This document shows positions 8,074 to 41,116 of a stretch of DNA of 52,892 nucleotides, one piece after another. The stretch comes from an uncultured bacterium (GTDB lineage Bacteria; Bacillota_I; Bacilli_A; RF39; UBA660), in assembly GCA_947169285.1 (NCBI GenBank), contig CAMVPB010000006.1:1-52892 (forward strand), in the 5' to 3' direction. The translations under genes and the position numbers were made by a program. Under the pieces are notes generated by a model that ran no database searches, was not told where the DNA came from, and saw only the letters and a program-made list of their open reading frames with translations. Each line of letters begins with the position of its first letter. Position 1 is the first letter of the stretch.

Positions 8074-9202
8074 AACTTAACCTCACTTTACCAGTTAACA
8101 ATTCATTTGCCAAACCGTCTTTGATTTTTTTATATTTCAACAGTTTAGATTCTAACTCTTTTATTTCCGATTCCATATCATATAATACTCTGCTAATCTC
8201 TGCTTGCTCATTAATATCAAAAGGTATTTCCAATTCAAACGAAGCAAATTTTTTATTTGAACAAACATACCTTTTACCACTACCTTCACAATATTTTGAA
8301 GCTTGATCTAAGAACTTTTGATTTTGAAAAATATATGCTCTAAATTTCATGTCCATATCAATAGTTGGTCTAAATCTTACGATATGATAACTATATACAA
8401 GATCCTCACTATCTTCTAAAGCAACAGCACTAACTCCAATATCTTCTCTTGTTTCAGATGAAGGAGTTAAAAATATATCTCCAGCTCTTACTAAACATTT
8501 ATTGTACTTATTTTCTGATGCTGTAACGAAGTGTTTACTCATATTATTATAAATAAAATTATTATGCATAATATCCATATAATTAAGCAATCTTACTTTT
8601 CTCTCGTCTTTATTAACTTTTTTATCAACACCATTACCATTAAAGTTACCTACATCACCAATTCTGACTTTTTTCCACTCACCATGTTTGTTTTTACCAT
8701 TTAATAACTCTTGTTTAACAGAATCAAATATTTTATTTTTCTTTGTAATAAGTTCCTGTAAACTATCAATTAAATGATCTATATTTAAAAGCGAGTTAGC
8801 TATTTTTCGTTGCTTATTAATATCATCTTCATATAATATATCAATATCATATATGATCTTTCCAGAAATTACTGGTTGAGCATTTTTGTTTGCATAATTA
8901 TTCAAATTGATATAGTTTAACAGATATCTGAGATAATTATTATCATATCTACTAATAGGTTTAACAATCAATGCATTATCACTTACCCAGCTATTAGAAA
9001 AAGTGATATTTACATTTCCACATTTTTCCCCAACTCTTCCAATTATTAAAGTGTCGCCTGGCACATTGTAATTATTATTATAACCATTAATTCCATTTCC
9101 ACCATAGACAGGATAATCTCCATAATTCATTAGTTTATCTACAGCAATACCATCACCACTATGAACTTTAATCAAAGATCCTAACTTGATTGTTTTTAGC
9201 AT
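8066..9202 (-). CDS. hsdS: Type I restriction-modification specificity subunit
   Basis: The product has 378 residues and two target recognition domains (about 1-130 and 175-310). Each is followed by a helical spacer rich in Lys/Glu/Leu (around 130-170 and 335-372) with the familiar end GLANELLTGK. The first half contains VYGGNGINGYNNNYN and GRVGEKCGNV, typical of HsdS recognition domains. It decides which bipartite sequence the complex methylates or cuts. It overlaps hsdM and hsdR by a few bases. Specificity cannot be read from sequence. No partial second hsdS or inverted repeats were seen, so no shufflon is apparent. Confidence 0.92.
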   Translation of the reverse strand: MLKTIKLGSLIKVHSGDGIAVDKLMNYGDYPVYGGNGINGYNNNYNVPGDTLIIGRVGEKCGNVNITFSNSWVSDNALIVKPISRYDNNYLRYLLNYINLNNYANKNAQPVISGKIIYDIDILYEDDINKQRKIANSLLNIDHLIDSLQELITKKNKIFDSVKQELLNGKNKHGEWKKVRIGDVGNFNGNGVDKKVNKDERKVRLLNYMDIMHNNFIYNNMSKHFVTASENKYNKCLVRAGDIFLTPSSETREDIGVSAVALEDSEDLVYSYHIVRFRPTIDMDMKFRAYIFQNQKFLDQASKYCEGSGKRYVCSNKKFASFELEIPFDINEQAEISRVLYDMESEIKELESKLLKYKKIKDGLANELLTGKVRLSYE

Positions 9203-11589
9203 TTAAATCCCGCCTTATCCAAATCTTCTAAAACTAAAGATTCTAACTCAGTTGTCTTTGCAGAAAGTTGAGGCAAAGTTTCTTCATAGTTTTCATATTC
9301 AACAGTAATCCTGTTTGTTAAATCATTTATTAATGCTTCATATTTATCATCAAATTTTCTTTCAATAGATCTATACCATTTTTTATTTATAATTAAGTTT
9401 TTAGAGATTTCATCATCTAATGAATTATATTTATCAATAATTAAACTATTTAATGCTTCTTGGTGATTCTTAATCTTCTTTTTGATATCCTTTTGCAATG
9501 ATAAATTGTTAAGCAATTCTTTTAATACTGCAACATTTTCTTCTGTTTCTTCTTTTATTTTATCTTTTATCATTTTTTCGCTAACTTTTTCTTCACTATT
9601 AAATACTTCTTCGTCGCCAGTATTTTCTTCTATAATCGATTCAAATTCTAAAATGAAGTTATCTAAATCTTTATATAGTGTTTCGATTATATCATTTTCT
9701 TCTTTGAAATATTCTTGAATTATGATATTTTTTGGCAACAAGTCAGAATCAAACTCATTTTTCTTTATTTTTCCATTTTTATCTTGTGCATATATTATTT
9801 TTGGTATCCACCCATTTTCAACAATCAAATAAAAGTCATCTTTCATTGTATCACTATAATATTCCATCAAAAATTCATATGCTTCATACTTGTCAATAAG
9901 TATATCATCAGAAAACTCTTTCAACATATTGTCTGACAAAGAATTAATAATTTCCTTAGCATTACATTCTGCATTAATAGAATATAATATATCTTTGTTA
10001 TCTTGTTCCCAGGAACTAACCCTCCTATTCAATGTAACAGAATAATTAATAAATTCTTCAGAGTTCGTTATTTCTTCATTAAGATTATCCTTATCAACCA
10101 TTAAGTCAAGATAGCCAACTTTTTTATTGTTGTTAAATAATTTGTTTCTTAATTTTGGTGCAATATTCCAATACTTAGATAATCTATCAATATCTGCTTT
10201 GGGGATACCACCAAGTAAATGAGCTCTTATATCTTGAATGACTTCATCATCAAAAGAATCAATATATCTTGGAATATTTAGATTATACTCCTCCTTTTCA
10301 ATATCTTTCATAGAAACATTTTTTGAATAATGTTCTATTTCGATTTTATTTAAGTATGTATCAGTTATCTTCTTAATATCTTCTTCCCTTAATTTATTTT
10401 TATTACCATCTTTAACAAAATACTTACTAGCGTCTATCATAAATATATTTTTTCTATTACTAGCTTCTTTTTTATCTAAAACAATTATACAAGCGGGAAT
10501 CCCGGTACCATAAAACAAGTTAGCTGGCAAGCCAATAATTCCTTCTATAAAACCACTTTTTAATAAATTTTTCCTAATTAATTCTTCTTGCCCACTTCTA
10601 AATAAAACTCCATGTGGAAGAATTATAGCACCTCGGCCATTAACTGAATTCATGGATTTTAACATATGGAGTAAAAAAGCATAATCACCACAATTGTCTG
10701 GAGGAGTTCCAAAACCTGTAAATCTATCAAAATTATTTTCTGCAGTTAAATCTGTATTCCATTTTTTCACTGAAAATGGTGGATTGGCAACGCAAAAGTC
10801 AAATGATCTAATTTTTCTATTTTCTAAAAATTGAGGATTTGTTAATGTATTACCAGATTTTATTTGAGCGGTAGCATTTCCATGTAAAAACATATTCATA
10901 ACGCAAAGACCCGCAGTATTGGTATCTTTTTCTTGACCATATAAATAAACTTTTGAATTATCAACCGCTTCATTACCAGCTTTTATTAAAAGTGAACCGG
11001 AACCACAAGCCATATCATATACTTCAATTGGACTCTTTTTAGATTCTGAAATTTTTAATATTTTTGCCATTATTCTTGAAACTTCAGATGGTGTATAAAA
11101 TTGTCCTTTACTTTTACCTGCTTCTGAAGCAAATTGTTTCATTAGATATTCGTACGCATCACCCAAAACATCATTATCATCCGCTCTATTATTGCTAAAG
11201 TCTAATTCTGGATCTTGAAATATTTCAACTAAACCAGTTAAAGCATCTATCATATCCTTACCTTTGCCAAGTTTATTTTCATCGTTAAAATCTACAACAT
11301 CTATAACATTTTGCAAATCGTTCTCTTCAGCAATTTTTGCTAATATTTTATTAAATTCTTCTCCAATATTTTTCTTACCTTTTAATGAAATCATTGTGTT
11401 AAAATTTGCATCAGCTGGTACATCTATTAAAGAATCTTTTTTGTTGTAATACTTATCTGTAATAACCTTCATAAATAGAACGATTAAAACATAATCTTTA
11501 TATTGTGTTGCATCCATTCCACCTTTGCTTCTTAAAGTATTACAACTATCCCATATTTTACTATATAAAACACTTTTCTTTACTGCCAT
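9196..11589 (-). CDS. hsdM: Type I restriction-modification DNA adenine methylase subunit
   Basis: The product has 797 residues. The N-terminal helical domain is followed by FYTPSEVSRIM (motif X, about 164-174), DMACGSG (SAM-binding motif I, 192-198) and NPPF (catalytic motif IV, 269-272), so it should be an active N6-adenine methyltransferase. Many HsdM proteins are near 500 residues. This one continues with about 300 extra residues rich in Glu, Lys and Asn, partly coiled coil, as in the long HsdM subfamily. Its ATG overlaps the stop of the upstream AbrB-like gene by one base. It protects host DNA and is required for restriction. Confidence 0.93.
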   Translation of the reverse strand: MAVKKSVLYSKIWDSCNTLRSKGGMDATQYKDYVLIVLFMKVITDKYYNKKDSLIDVPADANFNTMISLKGKKNIGEEFNKILAKIAEENDLQNVIDVVDFNDENKLGKGKDMIDALTGLVEIFQDPELDFSNNRADDNDVLGDAYEYLMKQFASEAGKSKGQFYTPSEVSRIMAKILKISESKKSPIEVYDMACGSGSLLIKAGNEAVDNSKVYLYGQEKDTNTAGLCVMNMFLHGNATAQIKSGNTLTNPQFLENRKIRSFDFCVANPPFSVKKWNTDLTAENNFDRFTGFGTPPDNCGDYAFLLHMLKSMNSVNGRGAIILPHGVLFRSGQEELIRKNLLKSGFIEGIIGLPANLFYGTGIPACIIVLDKKEASNRKNIFMIDASKYFVKDGNKNKLREEDIKKITDTYLNKIEIEHYSKNVSMKDIEKEEYNLNIPRYIDSFDDEVIQDIRAHLLGGIPKADIDRLSKYWNIAPKLRNKLFNNNKKVGYLDLMVDKDNLNEEITNSEEFINYSVTLNRRVSSWEQDNKDILYSINAECNAKEIINSLSDNMLKEFSDDILIDKYEAYEFLMEYYSDTMKDDFYLIVENGWIPKIIYAQDKNGKIKKNEFDSDLLPKNIIIQEYFKEENDIIETLYKDLDNFILEFESIIEENTGDEEVFNSEEKVSEKMIKDKIKEETEENVAVLKELLNNLSLQKDIKKKIKNHQEALNSLIIDKYNSLDDEISKNLIINKKWYRSIERKFDDKYEALINDLTNRITVEYENYEETLPQLSAKTTELESLVLEDLDKAGFKC

Positions 11590-14426: not shown

Positions 14427-14446
14427 TATTTTAGAGGAGGATGCCT

Positions 14447-15175
14447 ATGAAAAAGCAAGAAACATTTGCTGAAAAAGCAAGAAGACATAACTATTCAATT
14501 GAACAACATTTTGTTAATAACTTAAAGGCTATTATGACTGAAAAGAAAATAACAAGAACTCAGCTTGCTAAAATGTTAGACATGCCATACACTACCCTTT
14601 GTGATTGGTGCAATGGAAGAATATATCCTAAGTATGAAAAAATCGAAAAGATAGCTAATGTTTTAAAAGTTGATCCAAGTGAACTTGCAGGACTTGAATT
14701 AACATCTAGCAAAAACAGCGATGATGATTTATCTAATGAAGTTGCAAGAGTAAATGTTTTAAAATACCTTCCTTCAGATGCAAGTGTAAGAAAACCACAT
14801 CCTTCATTAGTTTGGTTTGAGACAAATATTGCACCAGAATTACTACAAAATAATAGCTACTATTTTGGTTTAAGAGTGAACGATAATACTATGGCTCCTA
14901 AGCTATATAAAAATGATTGGGTAATATTTCGTCAAACCGATATAATAGATGATGATGGAATCTATTGCCTAAGACATCCTGGTTGTGAAACAATTATAAG
15001 AAAAGTTGTTTTATTAAAAAATGGATTTTTAGTAATTCAAACTCATTCATCTTGGAAAGAAGGTAAAGATAAATCTTACTCACAATCTTATTCAATCAAT
15101 GATATTGGAAAAGAAATAGAAATACTTGGGAAAGCAATAAGATATTCTATTTCTGAGCATGATAATGAATTATAA
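14447..15175 (+). CDS. CI/LexA-like repressor with S24-type C-terminal domain, catalytic pair apparently lost
   Basis: The product has 242 residues. The start is the second ATG, because AGAGGAGG ends one base before the first ATG (14441), leaving no spacing. Residues 25-75 form an XRE helix-turn-helix (ITRTQLAKMLDMPYTTLCDW). The C-terminal domain has the S24 fold pattern, but the usual GxSM nucleophile motif reads NDNTM, with Thr in place of Ser at about 148. The region of the catalytic Lys reads TIIRKVV, with Arg at the likely position. It should still bind DNA and dimerise but may not self-cleave in response to SOS. It is probably the element's immunity repressor. Confidence 0.8.
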   Translation: MKKQETFAEKARRHNYSIEQHFVNNLKAIMTEKKITRTQLAKMLDMPYTTLCDWCNGRIYPKYEKIEKIANVLKVDPSELAGLELTSSKNSDDDLSNEVARVNVLKYLPSDASVRKPHPSLVWFETNIAPELLQNNSYYFGLRVNDNTMAPKLYKNDWVIFRQTDIIDDDGIYCLRHPGCETIIRKVVLLKNGFLVIQTHSSWKEGKDKSYSQSYSINDIGKEIEILGKAIRYSISEHDNEL

Positions 15176-15202
15176 AAAAAGACCACTGCTGGAACAGTGA
15201 TC
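15176..15202 (-). terminator. Hairpin with T-run on the minus strand after the repressor
   Basis: GATCACTG/CAGTGGTC (one G-U pair) with loop TTCCAG, followed on the minus strand by six T. It would stop antisense transcription entering the repressor gene. It has no T-run in the plus direction. Confidence 0.5.
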
Positions 15203-15209
15203 AAGTGAA

Positions 15210-15305
15210 AAATCCCTAATTTAAAGTTCGGTAAACTTAAATAATTATAACAAAGTATAATTTTGGAGATTTCTCGTATTTAATTATATCACCAATTAGG
15301 GATTT
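15210..15305 (+). promoter_or_regulatory. Pre-integrase intergenic dyad
   Basis: AAATCCCTAATT (15210-15221) and AATTAGGGATTT (15294-15305) are a perfect 12-bp inverted repeat 22 bases upstream of the integrase start. They enclose the right copy of the 25-bp repeat. It could fold into a long leader hairpin controlling integrase translation, or serve as recombination-protein binding sites. Confidence 0.5.
15226..15250. repeat. Right copy of the 25-bp perfect inverted repeat
   Basis: Exact inverted copy of 13906-13930. Here it lies between the repressor and the integrase and duplicates the tail of the HTH gene, its stop codon and part of the following ribosome-binding region, out of context. 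The two copies enclose about 1.3 kb with the HTH gene, the divergent promoters and the repressor. Confidence 0.9.
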
Positions 15306-15327
15306 CTACAAGAAAGTTGGTGAAATA

Positions 15328-16437
15328 ATGGCAGTTTACAAAGATCCTAAGCCTACTAAAAATGGTAGAGCTTGGTATTTTAAGTTTAGCTATAAAGATG
15401 CGTTTGGTGCTACTAAGCAATATAGATCTAAAAGGTATCTAACTAAAAAGGAAGCATCAGATGCAGAAAGAATGTTTTTAGTTACCTCTACTGATAAAGT
15501 AGAAGATAACAATATGACATTTAAAGACTTATATGATGAATTCAGAATGCATAACGATGAAATAATGAAAGATACTACTAAGTATGGTTATGATAATAAA
15601 GAAAAGTTTATAGAATGTTTCTATCCTGTTAAAGTGAAAGATTTTAATATTATGCAGTTTGAACAATGGAAACGGGAAATAAATAAACTTCATATATCTC
15701 TTAGATATAAAAATGATATTTACAAATTTCTTAAATCAATTTTAAACTTTGGTGTTAAATGGCATAACTTAAACTTTCAAGCAGTATATAATAAAATGAC
15801 AAAGTTCCAAGATCCTAATGAACGTAGAAAAGAAATGGCTTATTATACTTATGATGAATTCAAAAAGTTTATTTCTTATGAAGAAAATCTAAGATGGAAA
15901 TGTGTATTTGAAATATTATATTACTGTGGATTACGTAAAGGAGAATTAAAAGGTCTTACTTGGAAAGATATTTATTTTGATAAAAAAGTATTATCTGTTA
16001 ATAAACAAATAACACAGAGAAATAATCGTGTTAAATTCGAATTCTCGGACACTAAGACGAGAGATAGTAGAAGAATAGTTCCTATTACTAAAGTCTTGTT
16101 AAATGACCTTAAAATGCTCTATGAACAGGATAAAAAAGAGTATTACGGATTTAATGATGACTTCTTTGTAGTTTCTGATGCCAAACCCATAGCTGATTCT
16201 AATATATATCTTAGAAGAACTAAACTAGCTAATCTTGCTGGCTTAAAAGTTATTAGGATCCATGATTTTAGGCATTCGTGTGCATCACTACTTATTAACA
16301 ATGGTGCTAATGTTACATTAGTTGCCAAATATTTAGGGCATACAAAAATCGAGGAAACACTAAATACATATTCACATATGTTTAGTACTGCCCTCGACTC
16401 TGTTGTTTCTGTTATAGATAGCTTAGAAGATGACTAA
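15328..16437 (+). CDS. int: Tyrosine recombinase (integrase)
   Basis: The product has 369 residues. It has an N-terminal arm-binding domain (about 1-60), a core-binding SAM-like domain (60-165) and a C-terminal catalytic domain with R203 (CGLRKGEL), a probable Lys near 243, H312-x-x-R315 (HDFRHS), H338 (LGH) and nucleophile Y348 (NTYSHM). All catalytic residues are present. It should integrate and excise the element. An arm-binding domain of this kind fits the tandem TGTACCTAAA units at both ends. It ends head-on with the RloB gene one base away. Its position after the repressor is typical of satellites and temperate elements. Confidence 0.95.
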   Translation: MAVYKDPKPTKNGRAWYFKFSYKDAFGATKQYRSKRYLTKKEASDAERMFLVTSTDKVEDNNMTFKDLYDEFRMHNDEIMKDTTKYGYDNKEKFIECFYPVKVKDFNIMQFEQWKREINKLHISLRYKNDIYKFLKSILNFGVKWHNLNFQAVYNKMTKFQDPNERRKEMAYYTYDEFKKFISYEENLRWKCVFEILYYCGLRKGELKGLTWKDIYFDKKVLSVNKQITQRNNRVKFEFSDTKTRDSRRIVPITKVLLNDLKMLYEQDKKEYYGFNDDFFVVSDAKPIADSNIYLRRTKLANLAGLKVIRIHDFRHSCASLLINNGANVTLVAKYLGHTKIEETLNTYSHMFSTALDSVVSVIDSLEDD

Positions 16438-16438
16438 G

Positions 16439-17329
16439 CTATTTTTCTTTTATCATTTTATTAACTAATAATCCCACATTAGTTCCTAACTCATTTTTAA
16501 TCTTTGTAATATCTTCTGCTAAATCTTTTTCTCTTCTAATTGCATTTTTAATTCCAGGTTCAAACTCTTTAAAATTCAAAGAGTTTTTTCTATAACCACA
16601 TGCATCATGTAATCTCTTTTCAATATATCTTCTTCCAGAGTTATTCATTTTTCTATTTTTTATCAAATCTTCTTTATTTTCAGAATCAAATTCATCAAAA
16701 TGCATATATAACCATAATTCAAAACTTGGATTACTAACATACAAATTCACATTATTCTTCTTGCAGAATTCAACCACTTTATCATATTGTTCTTCTGTAA
16801 AACTATCTTTATCTCTATCGACTACCATATTAAGCGAATCAACATCAGACGAATAAGTAACATCCTGTGCTTCAAAATACTTTTCAAAGTTTCTGGCCAT
16901 ATCTTCATATGCTTCATTTTTAAATAGATGCATAAATACTGAATCTAAATCTTTATACGGTATTCTATAATTATCACCTTTATACATTTCATCTAATTTT
17001 GTAAAAGTACTATCTAAATCAATTTTACCAGGATTTTCATGATCCCAATTTGATAATTTGTTTTTCAATTCCCCTACTGTTACTTCATTAGCGGAATTAT
17101 CAATAAATGTTTGCAGTAATTTAATGACATGTGTTGGATTACTGTGTCCTTGATTTGCGTAATCTCTCAAAATATTAATAACAGTTACATTTTCTTTTAT
17201 TAATGATTCATTCAGTTTTTCAAAATATTTTGGTTCTGTTGCAGAACCTTCGGAAGCTATAAAATACTTTTTTCTATAATCACTAATTTCAGATTCTCTT
17301 TCTGTAGCAAATGGTTCTTTAATCCTCAT
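16439..17329 (-). CDS. RloB-family protein (AbiLii-like, TOPRIM-like effector)
   Basis: The product has 296 residues. YFIASEGSATEPKYFE near residues 22-37 is the RloB signature; VVDRDKD (D171, D173) and NPSFELWLYMHF (about 200-211) give the acidic set expected of a TOPRIM-like nuclease fold. RloB proteins pair with an AAA ATPase (RloA), and the same pairing makes up the lactococcal AbiL abortive-infection system. The gene overlaps rloA by 11 bases in one operon. Role inferred: the effector of an anti-phage system kept in check or armed by the ATPase. Confidence 0.82.
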   Translation of the reverse strand: MRIKEPFATERESEISDYRKKYFIASEGSATEPKYFEKLNESLIKENVTVINILRDYANQGHSNPTHVIKLLQTFIDNSANEVTVGELKNKLSNWDHENPGKIDLDSTFTKLDEMYKGDNYRIPYKDLDSVFMHLFKNEAYEDMARNFEKYFEAQDVTYSSDVDSLNMVVDRDKDSFTEEQYDKVVEFCKKNNVNLYVSNPSFELWLYMHFDEFDSENKEDLIKNRKMNNSGRRYIEKRLHDACGYRKNSLNFKEFEPGIKNAIRREKDLAEDITKIKNELGTNVGLLVNKMIKEK

Positions 17330-18635
17330 AATTAGTATCTATGTTGGCTATAGCACCAAATCTACCTTCCAAATATGCTTTATCAATTTTTCTATCAAAT
17401 CTTGCTACATCTTTGAATTCTTCTAGAGAGAATATTCTTGTGCTTCCTTCTTCTGATTTTTCTGCAAACCATATTTCATCACGTCTAACTAAGTCAAAAT
17501 CTAAAGTCTTTAATTCATGCGTAGTTATTATCAATTGGTTAGTATTATTTGACTCTAAAAATAATTTTAGTAATCCCTCAACAAGCAATGGATGTAAGCT
17601 ACTATCTAATTCATCTATTAAATAAACTTTATTATCAGTTAATAGTATATCAAGTAATTCTAATACTCTAATTGTACCATCTGATTCTTCATATGCTCCA
17701 AAAGAATATTCACTATTATTGTGCATGAATTTTAAACTTTTTACTTCAAATTTATTATTTTCATCTTTCTTAACAAGATATAAATCATTTTCAATTCTCA
17801 ATGTACAACTATTTATTTTTGCCTTTTTAGAAATCATTTCGAAGTCATTAATAAAATTAGCAAAATCAACATCTGACATTCTTGATCTAATGCTATTAAT
17901 ATCATAATCATCAGCTTTAATATTATTAATATTTATATCCATTTTATTTAAATACTTAATTATTTTATCTTTTTTATCAACATAATCTAATGGTAATAAT
18001 TTATGTGATGCAGGTCTAATAATTATCATTTCATTCGCTAAAAAATTAAATACATTTATAATATCTTTAAAGAAAATATCATTATTTTTTGACATTATTA
18101 ATCTTCTTGACATTTCAAGTAAAAATAAATCTGAATTATTATTTTTCATTTCCTTTAAACAAGTATTAAAATATTCATTTTTTTCTTTTATATCTGATCC
18201 AATTGTCTTTTTCTTTAAATCTCTTTCAAAAATAATTTTTTCTGTAGGTTTAGTCATATCAATCAACCATTCAGAAACTAACTCATTTCTTGAAAAATTT
18301 AACTCAAATCCATATGAATATAATTTTTTGTCTATTTCTATCTCATATTCAAAGTATGAATCCTTATTTGGATCACCATTTTTTCCTCTATAAAATTGAT
18401 TATTTATTAAAGTTCTTATTCCACCATTAAAAATACCTTTAATAATACTTATAGCAATTATTAAATTAGACTTTCCTGAGCCATTAGCTCCAAACAATCC
18501 AGAAAATTTTAGAACCTTTTTATTATTTGTTTCAATAATATGATTCTCATTATTTCTAACCTTCCCTGCCAACATTGAAAAATGTTGTAATTCATCAAAA
18601 GATCTAAAATTCTTAACTTTAAATCCCATTAGCAT
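17319..18635 (-). CDS. RloA/AbiLi-like AAA ATPase (ABC/SMC-type)
   Basis: The product has 438 residues. It starts MLMGFKVKNFRSFDE, the typical N-terminus of the AAA_15/AAA_21 ATPases. Walker A is GANGSGKS at 49-56. Walker B, VYLIDELDSSLHP, lies near 340-352, followed by IITTHELKTLD. The insert between the two halves of the nucleotide-binding fold is long and helical. It forms a two-gene operon with the RloB-like gene and is the probable phage sensor. Promoter at 18663-18691; AGGAGG site before the ATG. Confidence 0.85.
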   Translation of the reverse strand: MLMGFKVKNFRSFDELQHFSMLAGKVRNNENHIIETNNKKVLKFSGLFGANGSGKSNLIIAISIIKGIFNGGIRTLINNQFYRGKNGDPNKDSYFEYEIEIDKKLYSYGFELNFSRNELVSEWLIDMTKPTEKIIFERDLKKKTIGSDIKEKNEYFNTCLKEMKNNNSDLFLLEMSRRLIMSKNNDIFFKDIINVFNFLANEMIIIRPASHKLLPLDYVDKKDKIIKYLNKMDININNIKADDYDINSIRSRMSDVDFANFINDFEMISKKAKINSCTLRIENDLYLVKKDENNKFEVKSLKFMHNNSEYSFGAYEESDGTIRVLELLDILLTDNKVYLIDELDSSLHPLLVEGLLKLFLESNNTNQLIITTHELKTLDFDLVRRDEIWFAEKSEEGSTRIFSLEEFKDVARFDRKIDKAYLEGRFGAIANIDTNYED

Positions 18636-19733: not shown

Positions 19734-20051
19734 TTATTGCAAAAAATCGTATATTTTTTTGATAGAATTTGCTGATAAGTCTAATTCTTTTTTATCAGTT
19801 TCTCCTGCTAAAACAAGTTTATTATTTGTGTTTAGATATACTAATCTTTTACCATCATAAAAATATGGTGTTTTAATATTTGAAAATGCTAATTCTTTTA
19901 TAGAATCTACATAGTTAGCATATATTGAATAGTATTTATTGTCAGCCTTTTTATATAAATAGTATAAACCGTTTGTACTATAAACCTCTAATACACTTTC
20001 ATCTAATTTTTTAGTTATTTCTTCTGAGTATTCATCAATTATATAAAGCAT
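19734..20051 (-). CDS. Hypothetical protein, possibly a 5'-truncated remnant
   Basis: The product has 105 residues, rich in Tyr, Lys and Asp, with beta-type repeats (NGLYYLYKKADNKYYSIY, FYDGKRLVYLNTNN). No membrane segment or catalytic motif is seen. The ribosome binding site at this ATG is weak, and the frame stays open far upstream across the LysR remnant on the other strand, so a longer gene could have lost its 5' part here. A terminator follows. It lies immediately outside the right end of the element. Function not recognised. Confidence 0.5.
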   Translation of the reverse strand: MLYIIDEYSEEITKKLDESVLEVYSTNGLYYLYKKADNKYYSIYANYVDSIKELAFSNIKTPYFYDGKRLVYLNTNNKLVLAGETDKKELDLSANSIKKIYDFLQ

Positions 20052-20385
20052 ATTATCTTCTGTTATTATAAGTTTTCCTACTATAGTACTTCTTCCATTA
20101 GGTGCAAGTAATAGAAAAAACTTTGATAAATTTTGTTTATCAAATAATATAATTATTAATCCTTTAATGGAAATAGGAAATGATCTAATAGTTGAAGAAT
20201 GCGCCCAAGGCGGTTTAGGTGTTGGATTAGTAGTAAAAGAATATGTTCAAAAGAAATTAGATAATAAAGAATTATTTGAGCTTCAAACTAATTTCAATAT
20301 AGAAGAAAAAGATCTAGTATGTTTAATAGATCAAAATAGAAAAAATAATATAATTATTAAGAAATTCATAGAATTATTAAAATAA
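20047..20385 (+). pseudogene. LysR-type regulator, C-terminal fragment
   Basis: About 113 codons are open from just after a TAA at 20044 to the TAA at 20385. The sequence reads IVLLPLGASNRKNFDKFC, then NPLMEIGNDLIVEECAQGGL and GVGLVVKEYVQKKL, the second half of a LysR substrate-binding domain. The DNA-binding domain and first half of the effector domain are missing, and no ribosome binding site precedes the internal ATG at 20167. It is therefore a remnant. It meets the 5' end of the divergent hypothetical gene at 20046-20051, suggesting an old deletion or insertion scar. Confidence 0.75.
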
Positions 20386-20388
20386 AAA

Positions 20389-20411
20389 AATAAAAGCATA
20401 CTGCTTTTATT
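20389..20411. terminator. Bidirectional terminator between the LysR fragment and the RiPP operon
   Basis: AATAAAAGCA/TGCTTTTATT with a 3-base loop, T-rich on both strands. It ends the RiPP operon 10 bases after the last radical SAM gene. Confidence 0.85.
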
Positions 20412-20420
20412 TTTTATCAA

Positions 20421-21698
20421 TCAAACATTGTGTATTTTTTTAAATAAATGCTTAGTATACTCACAATTGTTTTTATCAATTCCACAAATGGACTGACTAC
20501 AATTGTAAGATCCAGTCGCACATCCACCACCACAAGAAATAACACTAGCACAATTTAAACATTCATTATTATCAAATCTAGATCTATTTCTCCATTCAAA
20601 CCAATTAGCATTACTAATATAATCATTCTGAAGTGTCCCCATATTATTAACTCCTAATTTTTCCATAGCTTGGCATGCATAAATGTTACCATTTGGAAAA
20701 ACAGTTATTTTTCTTGTAGCACCACAAGAATTTTTTGAAATAGCCTTATCTTCACCTATTAATCGATTATACAATTCTACAAATGCATAGTCACTCGCAA
20801 TTTTACCGTACTTTTCATAAGCTTTTAGCATTTCTTCTGCTAATTTTTCGGCATAACTATCACTTGAATTAAATGAATTTGAAATCAAAACATTAACTGC
20901 GTAATCATCTATACCCAATTCTTTAACTATTTTATAAATTCTTTCTGAAAAATTATCTAAGTTATCATCAGTAGCGGTTATCATAGGAAGAACTTTAACA
21001 CCACTATCTAATAATTTCTTCATATTGTTAATAACTATTTTATAAGTTGGTTCACCCAAATGAGTTTTTCTATGAAGATTATGCTTTTCTTCATCCCCGT
21101 CCAATGACACCTGTACTTCTACACTATTCTCTTTAAAAAGATGAATGTCATTATTATCTAATAATGTTGCATTAGTATTTATTACTAAACTTGTATCACT
21201 ATCAAATAAGTGTCTTGAATAAGGAATTACATTATAAAGCAGCTCTTTATTTAATAATGGCTCTCCTCCATAAAAAGTAATTTGCTGCCAATAGTCATCA
21301 CCTTTTATATTATTTTTAGTTATTTCCTTGAATTGCTCTAACGCTTCCTTTGCAACGCTAAATTTCATGTTTTCTCTCCTATGTAAAGAACCTGAAGCAC
21401 TTGACCTATAAAAACAATAGTCGCAATTCAAATTACACGCTGTCGAAGTTATCAAATACAGTGATTGAAATTGAGTATCAGTTGTTAACTTTTTGAGTTT
21501 TAAAAACATTTCTTTTTCCTTATCATATGTTGTAACAACTCCTAACTCTATTAAATGTAATGGTATATTACTATCTTCCAAATGTTCTTTGTTATTTTTA
21601 ATATATTCTACTTCTTCTGGTGATAACTTCAAAAATTCTTTATTTAAAGCATCCCATATTCTATCTCCAAAAATGTGTATAAATGATGATATTTTCAT
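20421..21698 (-). CDS. Radical SAM/SPASM peptide maturase (second enzyme)
   Basis: The product has about 425 residues. The start MKISSFIHIF at 21698 is preferred over an upstream ATG inside the previous gene because GGGA lies at proper spacing. Residues 1-85 form a domain like the N-terminal regions of RiPP maturases (possible RRE). The radical SAM cluster motif CNLNCDYC binds the SAM-type [4Fe-4S] cluster. The C-terminus has a SPASM-like cysteine set (CGATRK...CQAMEKLG...CLNCASVISCGGGC...C...C) for auxiliary clusters. It overlaps or abuts the other radical SAM gene. Expected role: a second modification or crosslink on the 25-residue precursor. Confidence 0.88.
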   Translation of the reverse strand: MKISSFIHIFGDRIWDALNKEFLKLSPEEVEYIKNNKEHLEDSNIPLHLIELGVVTTYDKEKEMFLKLKKLTTDTQFQSLYLITSTACNLNCDYCFYRSSASGSLHRRENMKFSVAKEALEQFKEITKNNIKGDDYWQQITFYGGEPLLNKELLYNVIPYSRHLFDSDTSLVINTNATLLDNNDIHLFKENSVEVQVSLDGDEEKHNLHRKTHLGEPTYKIVINNMKKLLDSGVKVLPMITATDDNLDNFSERIYKIVKELGIDDYAVNVLISNSFNSSDSYAEKLAEEMLKAYEKYGKIASDYAFVELYNRLIGEDKAISKNSCGATRKITVFPNGNIYACQAMEKLGVNNMGTLQNDYISNANWFEWRNRSRFDNNECLNCASVISCGGGCATGSYNCSQSICGIDKNNCEYTKHLFKKIHNV

Positions 21699-21700
21699 AA

Positions 21701-22792
21701 TTATCCCATATAAGAGCAATCTTTGCTCTCATCTTCCATTGCATATTTTGGAAACTTACCTAAGTTATACACATTTTGGCATTCTGGATCTGGTGCATAA
21801 AAATCGCCTTTATATTTCATCATAGCGTGTAATCTACAACCGCCTCTACATAAATTTCTAGCCAAACAATTACCACAAATACCTTTCAAATTATCAGGAT
21901 TTAATTTTTTAAACTCTAATAATTTTTTATTTTCTTTCCATATTTTTGATATAGGAGTTTTTCTGACATCATCAAAAATAAACATCTCGTTATCAGAACC
22001 AACATGGCATAAAGCAACTTTTCCTGAATAACCTATTCCTAACATCCCTTTTCCCCAAGGGCATAAACTATGTTGATAAATATCTATTGGTATTATAGCT
22101 GTATTTAATTCTATTGATAGATTTTTATCATCTTTATGGCTTCTTAAAAAATCATAATAAAAATCATCCATTAGTTTTTGTACTTTATCATAACTAACTG
22201 ATTCCGTCTCATTAGCGTCTACTCCTTTACCATATTCAATTATATTGGGTAACAAGCGAAATCCTAATCCTAATTCTTCATGAATAGTTTTAGCCAATTT
22301 TGGAATCTCATCATAGTTATTTTTACTTAAAACTGTGATTATTCTAAGAGGAATGCCATACTCTTTAATAATATTTATTGTTTTAAATGCTTTATCAAAA
22401 GAACCAATACCACGAGTTTTATCATTTGTCTCTTTCTTTATTCCATCTAAACTTATAGATATTGAAAGATGATCTTTAAAATTTGATAATAGTTCTATTT
22501 GTTTTTCATTTATTATTGTTCCATTTGTTTCTATGCTAACATCTAATCCTAATTCTATAGTTCTTTCAATAATTTCCAAAACATCTCTTCTACAAAAGAT
22601 TTCTCCACCAGTCATATTAACTTTCTTTAGACCAACCATTTTTGCATCTTTAAAAATGCTGATCCAATCATCTGCAGATAACTCCTCTTTTAAACATAAA
22701 TTATCTTTATTTTCATTTCTCCCACAATAAACACAGCTTAAATTACATCTATTTGTAAGCAACACTGCTAACACTTCTAATTTGTCTTTCAT
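21701..22792 (-). CDS. Radical SAM/SPASM peptide maturase (first enzyme)
   Basis: The product has 363 residues and begins almost directly with the radical SAM domain: CNLSCVYC lies near residues 16-23, then MTGGEIFCRRD (the GGE SAM-binding motif). The C-terminal SPASM-like region has CPWGKG, CHVGSD and CGNCLARNLCRGGCR. It lacks an N-terminal recognition domain, unlike its partner, so it may rely on that partner's domain. GGAGG precedes the ATG. It lies 59 bases downstream of the precursor gene, across a stem-loop. Expected role: introducing a crosslink or epimerisation in the precursor's VVYNCRRG core. Confidence 0.88.
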   Translation of the reverse strand: MKDKLEVLAVLLTNRCNLSCVYCGRNENKDNLCLKEELSADDWISIFKDAKMVGLKKVNMTGGEIFCRRDVLEIIERTIELGLDVSIETNGTIINEKQIELLSNFKDHLSISISLDGIKKETNDKTRGIGSFDKAFKTINIIKEYGIPLRIITVLSKNNYDEIPKLAKTIHEELGLGFRLLPNIIEYGKGVDANETESVSYDKVQKLMDDFYYDFLRSHKDDKNLSIELNTAIIPIDIYQHSLCPWGKGMLGIGYSGKVALCHVGSDNEMFIFDDVRKTPISKIWKENKKLLEFKKLNPDNLKGICGNCLARNLCRGGCRLHAMMKYKGDFYAPDPECQNVYNLGKFPKYAMEDESKDCSYMG

Positions 22793-22816
22793 TTTACTAC
22801 CTCCATTTTTATTTGT

Positions 22817-22837
22817 CAGGGAGATTAAAACTCCCTG
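22817..22837 (-). promoter_or_regulatory. Stem-loop between precursor and maturase genes
   Basis: CAGGGAG/CTCCCTG with a 7-base loop and no T-run on the minus strand. RiPP operons often have such a hairpin after the precursor to stabilise its mRNA or limit read-through, giving more peptide than enzyme. Confidence 0.7.
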
Positions 22838-22851
22838 GCAAATACTAATAG

Positions 22852-22929
22852 CTAACCTCTTCTGCAGTTATAAACTACATTGCCTTCAGCCATTTTGTTA
22901 ACTTTTTCTAAAAATTCTTGTTTTTTCAT
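22852..22929 (-). CDS. RiPP precursor peptide, 25 residues, ending YNCRRG
   Basis: A short frame in the gap between the arginase-like and first radical SAM genes encodes MKKQEFLEKVNKMAEG followed by NVVYNCRRG. The ATG overlaps the upstream stop (ATGA), and GAGGTG sits at proper spacing inside the end of the upstream gene. The leader-like first half is amphipathic (KKQEFLEKVNKMAEG). The C-terminal core holds Tyr, Asn, Cys and two Arg. Its position between an arginase-like enzyme and two radical SAM/SPASM enzymes makes it the evident substrate. No transporter or leader protease gene is adjacent, so export is unexplained. I know no exact described family; it is a strong inference from context. 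Confidence 0.8.
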   Translation of the reverse strand: MKKQEFLEKVNKMAEGNVVYNCRRG

Positions 22930-23882
22930 CTCTTTTTCACCTCCCTCTTTAATAATTTATTTATTAATTCAACCATCATTTTAGATGTTAAATTACCATA
23001 ATCATAACCATTTATTTCCATTATTTGAAAATAGGGTCCATCATCTAAACCGAAATTTATATTATGAGAATGACAATAATCACTTAAACAATTTACTATT
23101 CTAATTATATCTTCTTTTGTAATATTATTTTCACCTGCATGATAATAATTAGAATACCCTAATTCATTTTTAACGAAAACACAACTCTTGATCTTTTCTA
23201 TGTAGTTGTTTTGGTCTATTTCATCAATGTGACTTATATTATTTAAAATAGTAGCTGGCGAGTATTCAACTGCTGTATAACAAGATTTTCTGCAATTCAA
23301 AACATCAACATCAATAGATATAAAAATATTTTGTGGATTAATCATGTCAAGTGTTTTAAATATATCTACTTCATCTATTAAATGAACCCTTGATCTAAGA
23401 TCCTCGTTAGTATCATTAATGCTGCTTTGTCTCTTATGCTCAGGTACCCCAATAACAATATAATAACTTATATACCCTTCTTTCATTAATTTTGAAAAAC
23501 TATTTCCCTTCCATAAAAAGTCATTATAATCATATGTATCACTATGCATATCAAAACAAACTATTGTTAAATCTTTTTTATCTTTGTTAAGTTCTTTTAT
23601 TGTGTAATATGAATTAAGATCACTGGATGAAATAATAGCATCTGACTCTCTCAATTTTCCATCTATAACAAGTTTATCATTATAGTTATTTATTAAATTT
23701 TCTTTTAACAATAAAGGTTCTGTACTTAATAGTTCTGCATATTCCTCATATATTTGCTTTATATAGTTTATCATCTCATCTTCACAATTTTGCTTACTCA
23801 CAAATTGCATTATTTTTACCAAGTTTTCAAAGTCTACCATTCTTGCGTTTTTTTCATCTTCGCTACTAATCCAATTAATCAT
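22926..23882 (-). CDS. Arginase/ureohydrolase-fold enzyme, probable peptide arginase
   Basis: The product has 318 residues. CFDMHSD (D111, H113, D115) and SIDVDVLN (D191, D193) are the two main manganese motifs of the arginase fold. The first canonical motif (GGDHS) reads SSSDLNS, so the usual first His ligand is absent. The surrounding sequence is unlike metabolic arginase or agmatinase and closer to the UPF0489-type branch. Peptide arginases such as OspR turn RiPP core arginines into ornithine. Here the gene overlaps the start of a precursor with two core arginines. It is therefore read as a modifying enzyme, not arginine catabolism. It starts 3 bases after ABC-F. Confidence 0.75.
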   Translation of the reverse strand: MINWISSEDEKNARMVDFENLVKIMQFVSKQNCEDEMINYIKQIYEEYAELLSTEPLLLKENLINNYNDKLVIDGKLRESDAIISSSDLNSYYTIKELNKDKKDLTIVCFDMHSDTYDYNDFLWKGNSFSKLMKEGYISYYIVIGVPEHKRQSSINDTNEDLRSRVHLIDEVDIFKTLDMINPQNIFISIDVDVLNCRKSCYTAVEYSPATILNNISHIDEIDQNNYIEKIKSCVFVKNELGYSNYYHAGENNITKEDIIRIVNCLSDYCHSHNINFGLDDGPYFQIMEINGYDYGNLTSKMMVELINKLLKREVKKR

Positions 23883-23885
23883 ACA

Positions 23886-25514
23886 TTACCTCCTAATTGA
23901 CCTATTTAATTCTTGGTAATGTTCTACTATATTTCTATCATAATAAGATATTTTACCATCTGGTAGAAGTAGCAATCTTTCTATTCCTAAATTATCAACA
24001 AATTCAGGATTGTGTGAAACCACAATCATTGTTCCCTCATATGTTTTAAAGACTTCGGCTATTATCCTTTGCGTTTCCGGATCCAAATGGTTAGTTGGTT
24101 CATCTAATAGCAATAAATTTGCTTTACACATAGCAAGCTTAGCTAAAGCAACTCTACTTTTTTCTCCGGGAGATAGAACACTAACATTTTTAAATACTTC
24201 ATCCCCATAAAATAAGAATTTTGATAATATATTTCTTATTTGTTTTTGGCTATAACTAGTATCTGAAAAGTTTTCTAAAATATTTTTTTCTGTTTGCAAA
24301 ATTTCTAATTCTTGTGCGTAATATCCCATGTCAGTTTTTTCATTAATATTTATTTCGCCTTCATCTGGTTTTAATAATCCTACTAGTAATTTTAAAAGAG
24401 TAGATTTACCAACGCCATTTTCACCAACAATCAAAAACTTTTCCCCTTTATGCAAATCAAAATTTAAATTATCTATTATATAATTAGTACTATTTTTATC
24501 ATATTTAAAACACAAATTTTTAATTTGAAGTGGAATACTAGATGTCTCTCTTTCCATATCCATTTTAAAATTCACGTTTTTATTAGGCCCTGCTACTTCA
24601 ATTTTTTCTTTCAAAAGTTTTTCTAGCTTCTTCTCCCTATCTTGTGCCATTCTTTTACGATTTCCGGAAGCATTTGCATATTTATTAACAATTTCTCTTA
24701 ATTTCTTTTCTTCTTTCTCTTGAATTTGTGCTTGTTTTAATAAATACTCTTCTTTCTCTGATTGCAATTCTTTAAATTTAGAATAATTACCATCATATAA
24801 TTCGAATGTTTTTGTTCTTTTATCTAAAAACAATGTTTTTGATGTAACTTTATCTAAAAATTCAATATCATGTGAAATAATAAGAACAGTTCCTTTATAA
24901 TGTTTTAAAAAATTAACAACATATTCTTTGCTTGCCTCATCCAAATGGTTAGTAGGCTCATCTAATAATATAATTTCCGGATTGTTATAAAGTAATTTTG
25001 CAAAAGCCACTTTTGATTTTTGACCACCAGATATCTCTGATAACTTCCTCTCTAAAATATCTCCACCTATATTTAGCCCATCTATAATTTTTAATAATGT
25101 AGACTCTGCATTATAACTATCCCAATATTCTAATTTTTTTTGTAAACTTTCTATTTTAGCAAAAGCTTCTTGTTGATTTGTATCATCATTAGAAAGCGAA
25201 TCATACACACTTTGAAGTTCATTATTTAATTGATCAATAGGTCTTCCGGACAACAAATAATCTAATACACTTATACTCATGTCTTTTGCATCCATTGTAA
25301 TTTCTTGTGGTAGCCAATCAACCCGAGCATCTTTTTTAAAATAAATTTTGCCACTATCAGGATACTCTAATCCCTTTATTATTTTGAATAATGTTGTTTT
25401 ACCAGCGCCATTTACTCCTACTAAGCCTATTTTTTCATTGTCTGGAATATTCAAATTAATATTTCTAAAGACGTCTTGAGTACCAAATGACATCGATAAA
25501 TCTTTTATCTGCAT
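23886..25514 (-). CDS. ABC-F family ATPase (possible ribosome protection/self-immunity)
   Basis: The product has 542 residues: two ABC domains in tandem, without membrane segments. Walker A sites are GVNGAGKTT (about 33-41) and GENGVGKST; the LSGGQ-like signatures read ISGGQKSK and LSPGEKSR; Walker B is ILLDEPTNHLD and LLLDEPTNHLD. A charged coiled-coil linker (about 245-300) is typical of ABC-F proteins that enter the ribosomal E site, including antibiotic-protection factors. It is the first gene of the RiPP operon, driven by a strong promoter, so self-protection against a ribosome-targeting product is an attractive inference. A housekeeping translation factor is the alternative. Confidence 0.88.
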   Translation of the reverse strand: MQIKDLSMSFGTQDVFRNINLNIPDNEKIGLVGVNGAGKTTLFKIIKGLEYPDSGKIYFKKDARVDWLPQEITMDAKDMSISVLDYLLSGRPIDQLNNELQSVYDSLSNDDTNQQEAFAKIESLQKKLEYWDSYNAESTLLKIIDGLNIGGDILERKLSEISGGQKSKVAFAKLLYNNPEIILLDEPTNHLDEASKEYVVNFLKHYKGTVLIISHDIEFLDKVTSKTLFLDKRTKTFELYDGNYSKFKELQSEKEEYLLKQAQIQEKEEKKLREIVNKYANASGNRKRMAQDREKKLEKLLKEKIEVAGPNKNVNFKMDMERETSSIPLQIKNLCFKYDKNSTNYIIDNLNFDLHKGEKFLIVGENGVGKSTLLKLLVGLLKPDEGEININEKTDMGYYAQELEILQTEKNILENFSDTSYSQKQIRNILSKFLFYGDEVFKNVSVLSPGEKSRVALAKLAMCKANLLLLDEPTNHLDPETQRIIAEVFKTYEGTMIVVSHNPEFVDNLGIERLLLLPDGKISYYDRNIVEHYQELNRSIRR

Positions 25515-25583
25515 TTTTCCACGCCCCTTTTTTAAATTGCTTCATCTTAAATTTGAAGATACCTTATCCCAATTTTTTTCATT

Positions 25584-25612
25584 AGTATACATAAAAAAAT
25601 ACTTATTGTCAA
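25584..25612 (-). promoter_or_regulatory. Strong promoter of the ABC-F/RiPP operon
   Basis: TTGACA (25607-25612), 17 bases, TATACT (25584-25589) on the minus strand, about 70 bases upstream of the ABC-F gene. The leader carries a small dyad (CTTCA/TGAAG). Confidence 0.85.
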
Positions 25613-25648
25613 TATTTTCCACTTTTCTATTTTTTCTTTCTCTTTTAA

Positions 25649-26716
25649 TTATAATTCTTCTAAGACCTCTTCCATCCTATCATCATTTGTCATTGATGAA
25701 ATAAGCTTTATATAACTTTCATATCTCATTTTGTTTATTATCCCAAGTTTAACTGCTTGTTTAACACCACAGTCCTCTATTGGAATTATATAATGTAAAC
25801 AACCTTTATATTTACAAGTATCATTCCATTTATCAAATTCTGGAAAATAATCTTGTATTTCAGAAGGTTCAAAAGAAGATACATCTAGACTACGAATACC
25901 CGGAGTATCTATTATTGAAGAATTATCATTCCACACATAATATTTTGAAGCTGTTGTTGTATGTCTACCCCTTTTTGTTTTATCACTGACATGAGCAGTT
26001 TTTATTTCATCTTCACCCATAATAGCGTTAGTTAAAGAACTTTTGCCCACTCCACTATTCCCAACAAATATTGCTTGTTTTCCTAGTAAATAAGATTTAA
26101 TTTCTTCAATTCCAATATTACTATATGTCGAAGTTTCTATAACGGGTATATTTAAATTACGATAAATATTTAATATATTTTCTTCTTTTTCTGTTTTCAA
26201 ATCACATTTGTTTAAACATATTATTGCTGGTATTCCACTATTTTGAAGAATCATTAAATATCTATCAATAAATTTAGGATGTAATGGTGGCTCTTTTGCA
26301 GCAACAACTATTACCGCTAAGTCAACATTTGATGCTATATTTTTAGTTGTTCCAATATCATCATGCCTTGTACTATCTTTTTTAATTCTTGAAAGCATTG
26401 ATGTTCTTTTTAACATATTAGTAATGACATAATTGTCTTCATCTTTAGATACAACTACTTTATCGCCAGGAAACACAACTTGATTACAAACTAAATTAAT
26501 ATTCTTTCTTAATTTTGCTAAAACAATTTCACCATCATAAAGAACATAAGCATCATCATATCTTACCTCAATGACTATACCATAATTATCAGCGGCATAT
26601 ATTATAAAATCATTTACGTCTTCGTTCTTTTTACTAAATGCTTTTTCTTTTGCTCTTCGCTTATTTTCCATACTTTTTTTAGTTTTAAAACTTTCATAAG
26701 CATTATAATGCGGCAT
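25649..26716 (-). CDS. RsgA-like circularly permuted ribosome GTPase
   Basis: The product has 355 residues. After a basic N-terminus and an OB-like domain (about 45-125) come the permuted GTPase motifs NKCD (G4), GNSGVGKSS (G1) and DTPGIRSL (G3). A C-terminal zinc motif, CKYKGCLHYIIPIEDCGV, completes the RsgA plan. RsgA acts in late 30S subunit maturation; this looks like a divergent paralogue because of its neighbours and extended N-terminus. Its ribosome binding region contains eight consecutive G. It lies upstream of the ABC-F/RiPP operon on the same strand, so it may add ribosome-linked tolerance. Confidence 0.85.
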   Translation of the reverse strand: MPHYNAYESFKTKKSMENKRRAKEKAFSKKNEDVNDFIIYAADNYGIVIEVRYDDAYVLYDGEIVLAKLRKNINLVCNQVVFPGDKVVVSKDEDNYVITNMLKRTSMLSRIKKDSTRHDDIGTTKNIASNVDLAVIVVAAKEPPLHPKFIDRYLMILQNSGIPAIICLNKCDLKTEKEENILNIYRNLNIPVIETSTYSNIGIEEIKSYLLGKQAIFVGNSGVGKSSLTNAIMGEDEIKTAHVSDKTKRGRHTTTASKYYVWNDNSSIIDTPGIRSLDVSSFEPSEIQDYFPEFDKWNDTCKYKGCLHYIIPIEDCGVKQAVKLGIINKMRYESYIKLISSMTNDDRMEEVLEEL

Positions 26717-26733: not shown

Positions 26734-27501
26734 TTATAAAAACAATTCTGTTAATAAAATATAATATTCAATTGCTTCATAATTTGGCTTAATATTTAAT
26801 TTTTTAAATAAATATTCTTCAGCTTCATCTGTTTCATAATTTCTTCTTAATGATTTTACTAATATTGCAATATCATACCACATATCAGCAATCCCACTAT
26901 CTCCCAAATCAACAAAGCCAGTTATTCTTTCATCTTTATAAAATATATTTGGTATACTTAAATCTCCATGAGAAAAGCATAATTTTTCTTCTTTTATTTT
27001 ATTATTTATTAAATATTCATATAATTTTTCTACACTACCAAATCTCTTTTGATTTTCTTCATTCATATCAATTGTTGTAACAAGATTATTATCTATATTG
27101 TATTTTGCAGTTGCTAATTTTATATCAAGATTATTATAGAAAGGACAACTACTAATATCAATACTTTCCAATATTTTTATAGCGTCAGCAGCCAAATCAA
27201 TAACATGATACATATCATCAAATATTTCATCACAACAAATCATATCACCATCTAATTTTTTAGTTATTAATGTGCTTTCTTTTCCATCATAATTAAAGTG
27301 AATTACTTCAGGTGCTAATGATTTATCTTTTAAATAGTTAAACATAAAATATTCTTTATCTAATTTATTAGATTTAGCAACTTTTATATAATATGTTCCA
27401 TCTGCTTTTACGACTTCTTTTAAACTATCTCCAGAACACCCTATACTTATATCATTAATCTTTGCATTTTTTATAAATTCTTTTACAAATGTATTATCCA
27501 T
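26734..27501 (-). CDS. Aminoglycoside 3'-phosphotransferase-like kinase
   Basis: The product has about 255 residues starting MDNTFVKEF. This start is preferred because GGTGA lies 5 bases upstream, whereas the longer start at 27513 touches the previous stop. FSHGDLSIPNIF (catalytic HGDxxxxN) and TGFVDLGDSGIADMWYDIA (metal-binding D) match the APH(3') pattern closely, including the D-x-G-x-x-G-x-A-D spacing. The length is normal. It may phosphorylate an aminoglycoside or a related natural product. Genuine resistance cannot be judged from motifs. It lies between a Nudix gene and the RsgA-like gene in one apparent transcript. Confidence 0.8.
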   Translation of the reverse strand: MDNTFVKEFIKNAKINDISIGCSGDSLKEVVKADGTYYIKVAKSNKLDKEYFMFNYLKDKSLAPEVIHFNYDGKESTLITKKLDGDMICCDEIFDDMYHVIDLAADAIKILESIDISSCPFYNNLDIKLATAKYNIDNNLVTTIDMNEENQKRFGSVEKLYEYLINNKIKEEKLCFSHGDLSIPNIFYKDERITGFVDLGDSGIADMWYDIAILVKSLRRNYETDEAEEYLFKKLNIKPNYEAIEYYILLTELFL

Positions 27502-27513
27502 ATTAATCACCAT

Positions 27514-28026
27514 TTATTTTTGATCCAAATATTCTTTAATAGCATCTATCATATCAGGAGATATAACTTTATTCTTTTCATTTTTAGGCATATTATCTTT
27601 AATATATTCAATTGATTCATTCAAAGGAACAAAATCAACTTTAAAGTTTTGTTCTTTCTCCGAGTCTGTCAAATTAATGTTTTCTAAATTAGGTAATTTA
27701 TTAGTGTTAACTACATAATAATATATTTCACATTTTCTATTTTTACCTTCACTTGGCCAATCTCTATTTAACCATACTACTTTTAAAAAGCATTCGACTA
27801 TTTCATTATCTTCTATTTCTATTCCAGTTTCTTCTTTTATTTCTCTTTTTAAGCAATCATTTAAAGATTCGCCATCTTCTAAATGTCCTCCAGGAAATTG
27901 TAAAACATCATTTTCATTGGCTAATAAAAGATTATCGTTATTTAATACTAATGCTTTTGTTCTAATTACTAATTCAGTAACTTCACTTTCTAAAAGATTA
28001 TCATCATTATGTATTATTTCTTTCAT
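27514..28026 (-). CDS. Nudix hydrolase
   Basis: The product has about 170 residues from the ATG at 28026 (GGTGGT site upstream; a GTG at 28038 is the alternative). The Nudix box is complete: GGHLEDGESLNDCLKREI then KEETGIEI. Nudix enzymes hydrolyse nucleoside diphosphate derivatives; the substrate here is not evident. It is the first gene of the leftward group with the APH-like and RsgA-like genes. A dyad over the -10 region suggests repression. Confidence 0.85.
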   Translation of the reverse strand: MKEIIHNDDNLLESEVTELVIRTKALVLNNDNLLLANENDVLQFPGGHLEDGESLNDCLKREIKEETGIEIEDNEIVECFLKVVWLNRDWPSEGKNRKCEIYYYVVNTNKLPNLENINLTDSEKEQNFKVDFVPLNESIEYIKDNMPKNEKNKVISPDMIDAIKEYLDQK

Positions 28027-28040
28027 ATTTACCACCACAC

Positions 28041-39390: not shown

Positions 39391-39411
39391 AGCTCACCTC
39401 TATCAATAATA

Positions 39412-39440
39412 ATTATATAACAAAACGTTATTTTCTTCAA
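39412..39440 (-). promoter_or_regulatory. Promoter of the virD4-like gene
   Basis: TTGAAG (39435-39440), 17 bases, TATAAT (39412-39417) on the minus strand. Confidence 0.78.
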
Positions 39441-39447
39441 TCAAATA

Positions 39448-41075: not shown

Positions 41076-41116
41076 ATATTACTCCTATTTTTAACTTATT
41101 ACATAATTTATTTTTA

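Follow-up and report, generated by a model that had tools for sequence, protein, structure and literature searches.

A five-gene cassette on the minus strand of a 52,892-nucleotide stretch of DNA from an uncultured bacterium of the lineage RF39; UBA660 (GenBank assembly GCA_947169285.1, contig CAMVPB010000006.1; hereafter the window) appears to encode a new family of ribosomally synthesized and post-translationally modified peptides (RiPPs) of the radical S-adenosylmethionine (SAM) type, or RaS-RiPPs. In order, the genes encode an ABC-F protein, an arginase-fold enzyme, a 25-residue peptide and two radical SAM enzymes, here called rSAM1 and rSAM2. Our preferred reading, to which we assign a probability of roughly 0.6, is that the cassette makes one fixed, thioether-bridged, ornithine-containing short peptide, and that the ABC-F protein probably serves in self-protection. 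The more general part of this reading, that the small gene is a RiPP precursor accompanied by its maturases, we consider very probable. The source genome is a 981-kb draft, estimated to be 91% complete, of which the window forms contig 6.

The precursor gene carries much of the argument. Its ATG overlaps the TGA of the arginase gene as ATGA, it has a ribosome binding site of its own, and its product ends in Tyr-Asn-Cys-Arg-Arg-Gly (YNCRRG), all as described in an earlier annotation made from the letters of this DNA (the sequence-only reading); the binding site is a strong one (GGGAGGTG). That reading had staked itself beforehand on conservation of the small frame in related operons, and the frame is present in every cassette: 25 to 27 codons with a strong ribosome binding site, immediately 5' of rSAM1, and with an invariant YNCRRG-stop at the same position in loci L002-L008, L013, L015, L016 and L017 (our own locus numbering). 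There are eight distinct precursor sequences, all ending in YNCRRG, and four of the six codons of this core (those for Gly, the first Arg, Cys and Asn) differ synonymously among them. Of 28 pairs, 27 have a nonsynonymous divergence (dN) below their synonymous divergence (dS), the remaining pair being almost identical in sequence; the frame is under purifying selection. Since every related cassette has the frame in the same place, with the same hexapeptide and with dN below dS, it is not a chance open reading frame (ORF). The residue preceding the Tyr is hypervariable (V, L, C, N or A), thus the constraint starts sharply at the Tyr, and on this basis the leader, which is lysine-rich, probably comprises approximately residues 1 to 18 or 19, with YNCRRG as the core. 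A small precursor gene adjoining a radical SAM/SPASM maturase and conserved across clusters is the arrangement by which RaS-RiPPs are recognized.

The cassette is sporadic. When 291 genomes of the host family were searched with a degenerate DNA pattern for YNCRRG-stop, six matches appeared, five in the cassette (the window and four other genomes) and one by chance; L018, where the core pattern is matched by chance in the frame FYIYFFYNCSRG, has no enzymes alongside and was set aside. A search of the genome collection with rSAM1 found seven close loci of 75-83% identity, all in uncultured metagenome assemblies, six of them titled Bacilli or Bacillales. The carriers are uncultured, small-genome Bacilli of gut and rumen. 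The five-gene order is colinear in L002-L008, L059 and L060, as far as the contigs reach, while the flanks differ: the window has RsgA, L002 and L059 have acetyltransferases, L004 has a signal recognition particle GTPase-like gene and L007/L008 a glycosidase-like one. The four larger cassette proteins have pairwise distances that correlate with r of 0.95-0.99, so the ABC-F, which the sequence-only reading listed without giving it a role, is an integral part of the cassette; rSAM1 is the most constrained of the four and the arginase the least. Beyond these loci, no relative of this type of arginase was found in 394 other class-level and 391 other phylum-level sampled genomes, and strict searches with rSAM1 and rSAM2 in 376 genomes of the class found the window alone, so a wider family with variant cores was not assembled. 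Viral contigs held no relative of rSAM1 or of the arginase, and plasmids no relative of the arginase.

Both radical SAM/SPASM enzymes named in the sequence-only reading are confirmed, with both motif sets intact in all copies. In rSAM1 the conserved cysteines are C16-x3-C20-x2-C23 and, in the SPASM domain, C306-x2-C309-x5-C315-x3-C319. Its best NCBIfam models are WgkB, NirJ, ScmF, AhbD and PqqE, all far under cutoff; against the models for PqqE (124 bits, cutoff 381) and the mycofactocin radical SAM enzyme (116 bits, cutoff 265), the equivalog cutoffs are not reached. Like PqqE, WgkB and NirJ, rSAM1 has a SPASM motif and no N-terminal RiPP recognition element (RRE), although there is no PqqD and no matching substrate motif here, and no partner genes for pyrroloquinoline quinone (PQQ) or mycofactocin are present in the cassettes. 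A carbon-carbon bond involving Tyr20 is a plausible, unproven product. In rSAM2 the CX3CX2C motif is likewise intact, and the SPASM cysteines are C379-x2-C382-x5-C388-x3-C392, numbered from the K of KISSF. Its best models are PapB (146.8 bits, cutoff 340) and the SCIFF maturase (122.6 bits, cutoff 425), and the closest solved structure, both in sequence, aligned over residues 7-419, and in fold, is CteB (5WGG/5WHY). It matches the CteB/PapB/SCIFF-ranthipeptide maturases over nearly its whole length, including a predicted RRE-like N-terminus, although it falls far below the curated cutoffs and its substrate, with one conserved Cys, is not a SCIFF peptide. Residues 1-71 of the AlphaFold model have the beta-beta-beta-alpha-alpha-alpha order of an RRE, with local confidence mostly 65-86, while the overall predicted local distance difference test score (pLDDT) is only 55 and the model is poor beyond residue 297. 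A thioether is the likeliest product of rSAM2, and we think it probable, since the CteB and PapB relatives form Cys thioethers and a single Cys is invariant in the core; by analogy, the acceptor could be Arg23 (giving an enteropeptin-like ring) or Asn21 (giving an NxxC-like bond).

The arginase-fold enzyme reported in the sequence-only reading is present, judging from a weak match to PF00491 (30.4 bits, cutoff 22) and from an AlphaFold model (pLDDT 76) with a ureohydrolase fold, for which Foldseek returned formimidoylglutamase and agmatinase at probability 1.00 with low template modelling (TM) scores; a profile search of solved structures matched formimidoylglutamase and arginase. D111, H113, D115, D191, D193 and E289 are invariant in the alignment. 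The parallel drawn earlier to OspR did not hold up. The OspR-type peptide arginases (pfam12640; landornamide, FlmR, OhkR, PbsE) also apply a ureohydrolase fold to RiPP precursors, and one of their target types contains CRR (SCCRRSCN), but they belong to another Pfam family; only the DXHXD motif is present here, and the motifs of the cassette enzyme are CFD(M/L)HSD, WKGNxF and SIDxD. The enzyme lies outside pfam12640, thus the proper comparison is to KgrD of the enteropeptins, peptides of the KGR family in Enterococcus cecorum. There a PF00491 arginase and a radical SAM enzyme give (N-methyl)ornithine fused to Cys, with KgrD working on an Arg that has first been joined to Cys in a ring (PMC12703449; PMC10028609), and the core is SMKG-Orn-CPPS, in Arg-Cys order (PMC12395415). 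The shared features are a short RiPP, a Cys beside an Arg, a radical SAM enzyme and a PF00491-type arginase, with ornithine the expected outcome. The enteropeptins differ in having Arg-Cys within a KGR motif where all copies here have Cys-Arg-Arg, in an N-methyltransferase that no cassette here possesses, and in lacking the second radical SAM enzyme and the ABC-F; KgrC and KgrD were compared by description only. By this analogy, ornithine is likely to be present in the product.

Arginase-plus-radical-SAM RiPPs have therefore been described already, and the remark in the sequence-only reading that it knew of no described family with this combination needs qualifying on that point. It stands for the exact combination: two radical SAM enzymes, an arginase, an ABC-F and an invariant YNCRRG core were not found together in the literature searched, which covered few subscription journals. 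Literature matches to YNCRRG itself were a plant RALF and unrelated papers, and were discarded. The ryptides (RRR), NxxC peptides and other streptococcal RaS-RiPPs share a short precursor, a radical SAM/SPASM enzyme and Arg/Tyr or Asn/Cys crosslink partners, although we know of no arginase, ABC-F or core matching YNCRRG among them. The parts are known, while the combination and the core appear to be new; this is a new family of RaS-RiPP and not a new kind of system.

The ABC-F protein scores above the cutoff for NCBIfam NF000355 ("ribosomal protection-like ABC-F"). Its closest solved chain is PoxtA (E value 2e-147, the next being 2e-76), with a score about twice that of any other, and it is 47% identical to plasmid PoxtA, about 32% to OptrA and about 28% to EttA. 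In the phylogenetic tree the cassette ABC-Fs, PoxtA and standalone genes of related genomes form one clade with support of 1.000. Genes of this PoxtA clade are absent from most related genomes and always present with the cassette. It resembles PoxtA (ARE8) in clade and identity and differs in sitting within a biosynthetic cassette. Ribosome self-protection for the producer is its most likely role. One standalone gene, that of L020, lies inside the cassette group. The standalone gene of L049 (genome G413; 6015-7658), nested in that group and 64% identical, adjoins divergently transcribed acyl carrier protein, adenylating-enzyme and pyridoxal phosphate-dependent decarboxylase-like genes, and may mark another biosynthetic locus.

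While the gene order, the conservation and coding selection, the assignments to families and motifs and the co-evolution are observed, we infer the chemical steps, their order, the target and the immunity role as follows. The leader would be bound, with the RRE-like domain of rSAM2 as the probable docking site, and rSAM2 would then join Cys22 through a thioether to an adjacent core residue, Arg23 and Asn21 being the nearest candidates. A second bond or an oxidation would be introduced by rSAM1, with Tyr20 the obvious partner, and the PF00491 enzyme would then hydrolyse one or both arginines to ornithine, as KgrD does in the enteropeptins. After trimming of the leader by a general housekeeping peptidase, the mature product would be fixed, cationic and probably bicyclic, of about six residues. 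The co-inherited ABC-F, encoded by the first gene of the operon, most likely shields the producer's ribosomes, which would make translation the probable target of inhibition by the product; taken on its own, the ribosome as target seems to us to fall somewhat short of an even chance. Rather unlikely still, but worth stating, is the full proposal: that gut bacteria with reduced genomes make a new class of antibiotic, a ribosome inhibitor of six residues and invariant structure that contains ornithine, is modified twice by radical SAM enzymes and is countered by a dedicated PoxtA-clade ABC-F. If that were true, the cassette would supply a natural ligand for a PoxtA-type ABC-F and might tie such proteins, in their evolution, to self-immunity, and so bear on the open question of which natural molecules PoxtA-like proteins evolved against. 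Even the more modest reading would place in uncultured small-genome Bacilli a RaS-RiPP family in which a thioether, a second radical SAM reaction and an Arg-to-Orn conversion all fall on a six-residue core, and the parts are small enough for reconstitution in E. coli.

Several observations weigh against this reading. An invariant core is unusual among bacteriocins. No cassette copy includes a dedicated exporter or protease, as the sequence-only reading had already remarked. Where the canonical first metal-binding His of an arginase would stand, the main clade (five of the six aligned copies) has Asp88 while the L006 clade keeps the His, and in the HG(T/M)PF motif Lys125 takes the place of the His; with most ligands invariant and these two positions replaced, a metal site is likely yet altered, and arginase activity could be lost or different. 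The antibiotic resistance domain (ARD) loop of the ABC-F is three residues shorter than that of PoxtA (and three longer than that of EttA), and standalone PoxtA-clade genes occur in ordinary contexts in other genomes. Since sequence separates ABC-Fs of resistance only with difficulty from those of housekeeping (PMC8987054), immunity is something we infer, chiefly because the protein is co-inherited with the cassette enzymes.

Some of these points feed the most serious competitor, which leaves the RiPP chemistry unchanged but makes the ABC-F a translation helper that relieves stalling on charged sequences and the product a signal or bacteriocin acting off the ribosome. ABC-Fs of the YfmR/YkpA type aid translation of difficult charged motifs (PMC11381351), and the compact ARD loop, the occurrence of standalone relatives elsewhere in the family and the lack of any other ABC-F in the source genome at E<=1e-30 would all fit; a 25-codon gene, however, scarcely requires a factor of its own, and a general helper accords poorly with a clade that most related genomes lack but that always accompanies the cassette, and with its tight co-evolution with the enzymes. 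We give this perhaps one chance in four. Slightly less probable is that the ureohydrolase-fold protein is a binding partner or some other hydrolase, leaving the arginines in the product. Its replaced His positions, its weak PF00491 score and its status as the fastest-evolving member of the cassette (38-42% identity to the L006 clade) speak for it, but the C-terminal Glu and all but one of the six metal ligands are the same in every copy, Asp is plausible as a metal ligand, and the Arg-Arg pair of the core never varies.

That the core is instead cut out to give a small redox cofactor or metal-binding molecule, after the manner of PQQ or mycofactocin, would explain why the hexapeptide is invariant while the enzymes diverge to 38%, and the precursor is of PqqA size and rSAM1 matches the PqqE, mycofactocin and NirJ models. 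We nevertheless consider it improbable: the cassettes and their surroundings hold no dehydrogenase or oxidase to act as partner, occurrence is sporadic in the family, the ABC-F belongs to the cassette, and an arginase would not be expected. Finally, the stable hairpin directly 3' of the small frame might suggest an untranslated RNA leader or attenuator, which the strong ribosome binding site in all copies, the low dN and the peptide end preserved through synonymous changes make exceedingly unlikely. The RiPP reading with ABC-F self-protection thus remains the one we favor.

Table 1. Features of the cassette in the window, in order of transcription
Feature	Position	Strand	Basis
Putative operon promoter, TTGACA-17-TATACT	25584..25612	(-)	Top sigma-70 match in 20000-26000 (11/12); consensus match only
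ABC-F ATPase, PoxtA clade, 542 aa	23886..25514	(-)	NF000355; closest solved chain PoxtA; tree
Probable peptide arginase with ureohydrolase fold, converting Arg to Orn, 318 aa	22926..23882	(-)	PF00491; AlphaFold model
Precursor gene, 25 aa, MKKQEFLEKVNKMAEGNVVYNCRRG	22852..22929	(-)	Invariant YNCRRG-stop; strong ribosome binding site; dN<dS
Stem-loop in the precursor/rSAM1 gap	22810..22844	(-)	-20.9 kcal/mol, z -4.3
rSAM1, radical SAM/SPASM, 363 aa, without N-terminal RRE	21701..22792	(-)	Pfam Radical_SAM and SPASM
rSAM2, radical SAM/SPASM with predicted RRE-like N-terminal domain, 425 aa from ATG	20421..21698	(-)	PapB/CteB-like

The stem-loop noticed earlier 3' of the small gene is a strong hairpin, and one of differing sequence occupies the equivalent position in L002, L004, L059, L060 and L006; covariation was left uncounted pair by pair because loop lengths shift the alignment register. 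It may adjust the expression ratio or mRNA stability. The two radical SAM genes, said to overlap, do so solely if rSAM2 starts at a TTG at 21719; with the ATG at 21698 they stand 2 nt apart, and some relatives may have a 4-nt ATGA overlap. The end point of 25612 given earlier for the locus is the start of the promoter match before the ABC-F gene.

An AAC(6')-like acetyltransferase gene lies upstream of five cassettes, and in several an AAC(6')-Ie-like gene is directly upstream of the ABC-F (L002:1088-1609, L059:3061-3591, L060:10094-10675). We considered it as a sixth member and treat it as a neighbour, because it is a decayed remnant near the cassette of L004 and intact without a cassette in genome G269 (L076). 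A defence-system reading of the locus was also rejected, the PADLOC matches reflecting generic radical SAM (viperin) and ATPase similarity. In the window, upstream of RsgA and on the cassette strand, are an APH(3')-like phosphotransferase (26734-27513, (-); NF033068, 197 bits against 205) and a Nudix hydrolase (27514-28038, (-)). From ORF reading alone, 37087-52756 is a probable conjugation or type IV secretion block, with a coupling-protein-like ATPase (37087-39390), a VirB4-like protein (42431-44221), a large membrane protein (45097-47241) and a sortase-like protein (51149-52756). The same kind of reading indicates a type I restriction-modification set of HsdR-, HsdS- and HsdM-like ORFs at 4921-11589 and, at 14441-18635, a likely integrated element with a phage-type repressor, a tyrosine integrase (15328-16437) and a defence-like pair of an AAA ATPase and an RloB-like protein (16439-18635).

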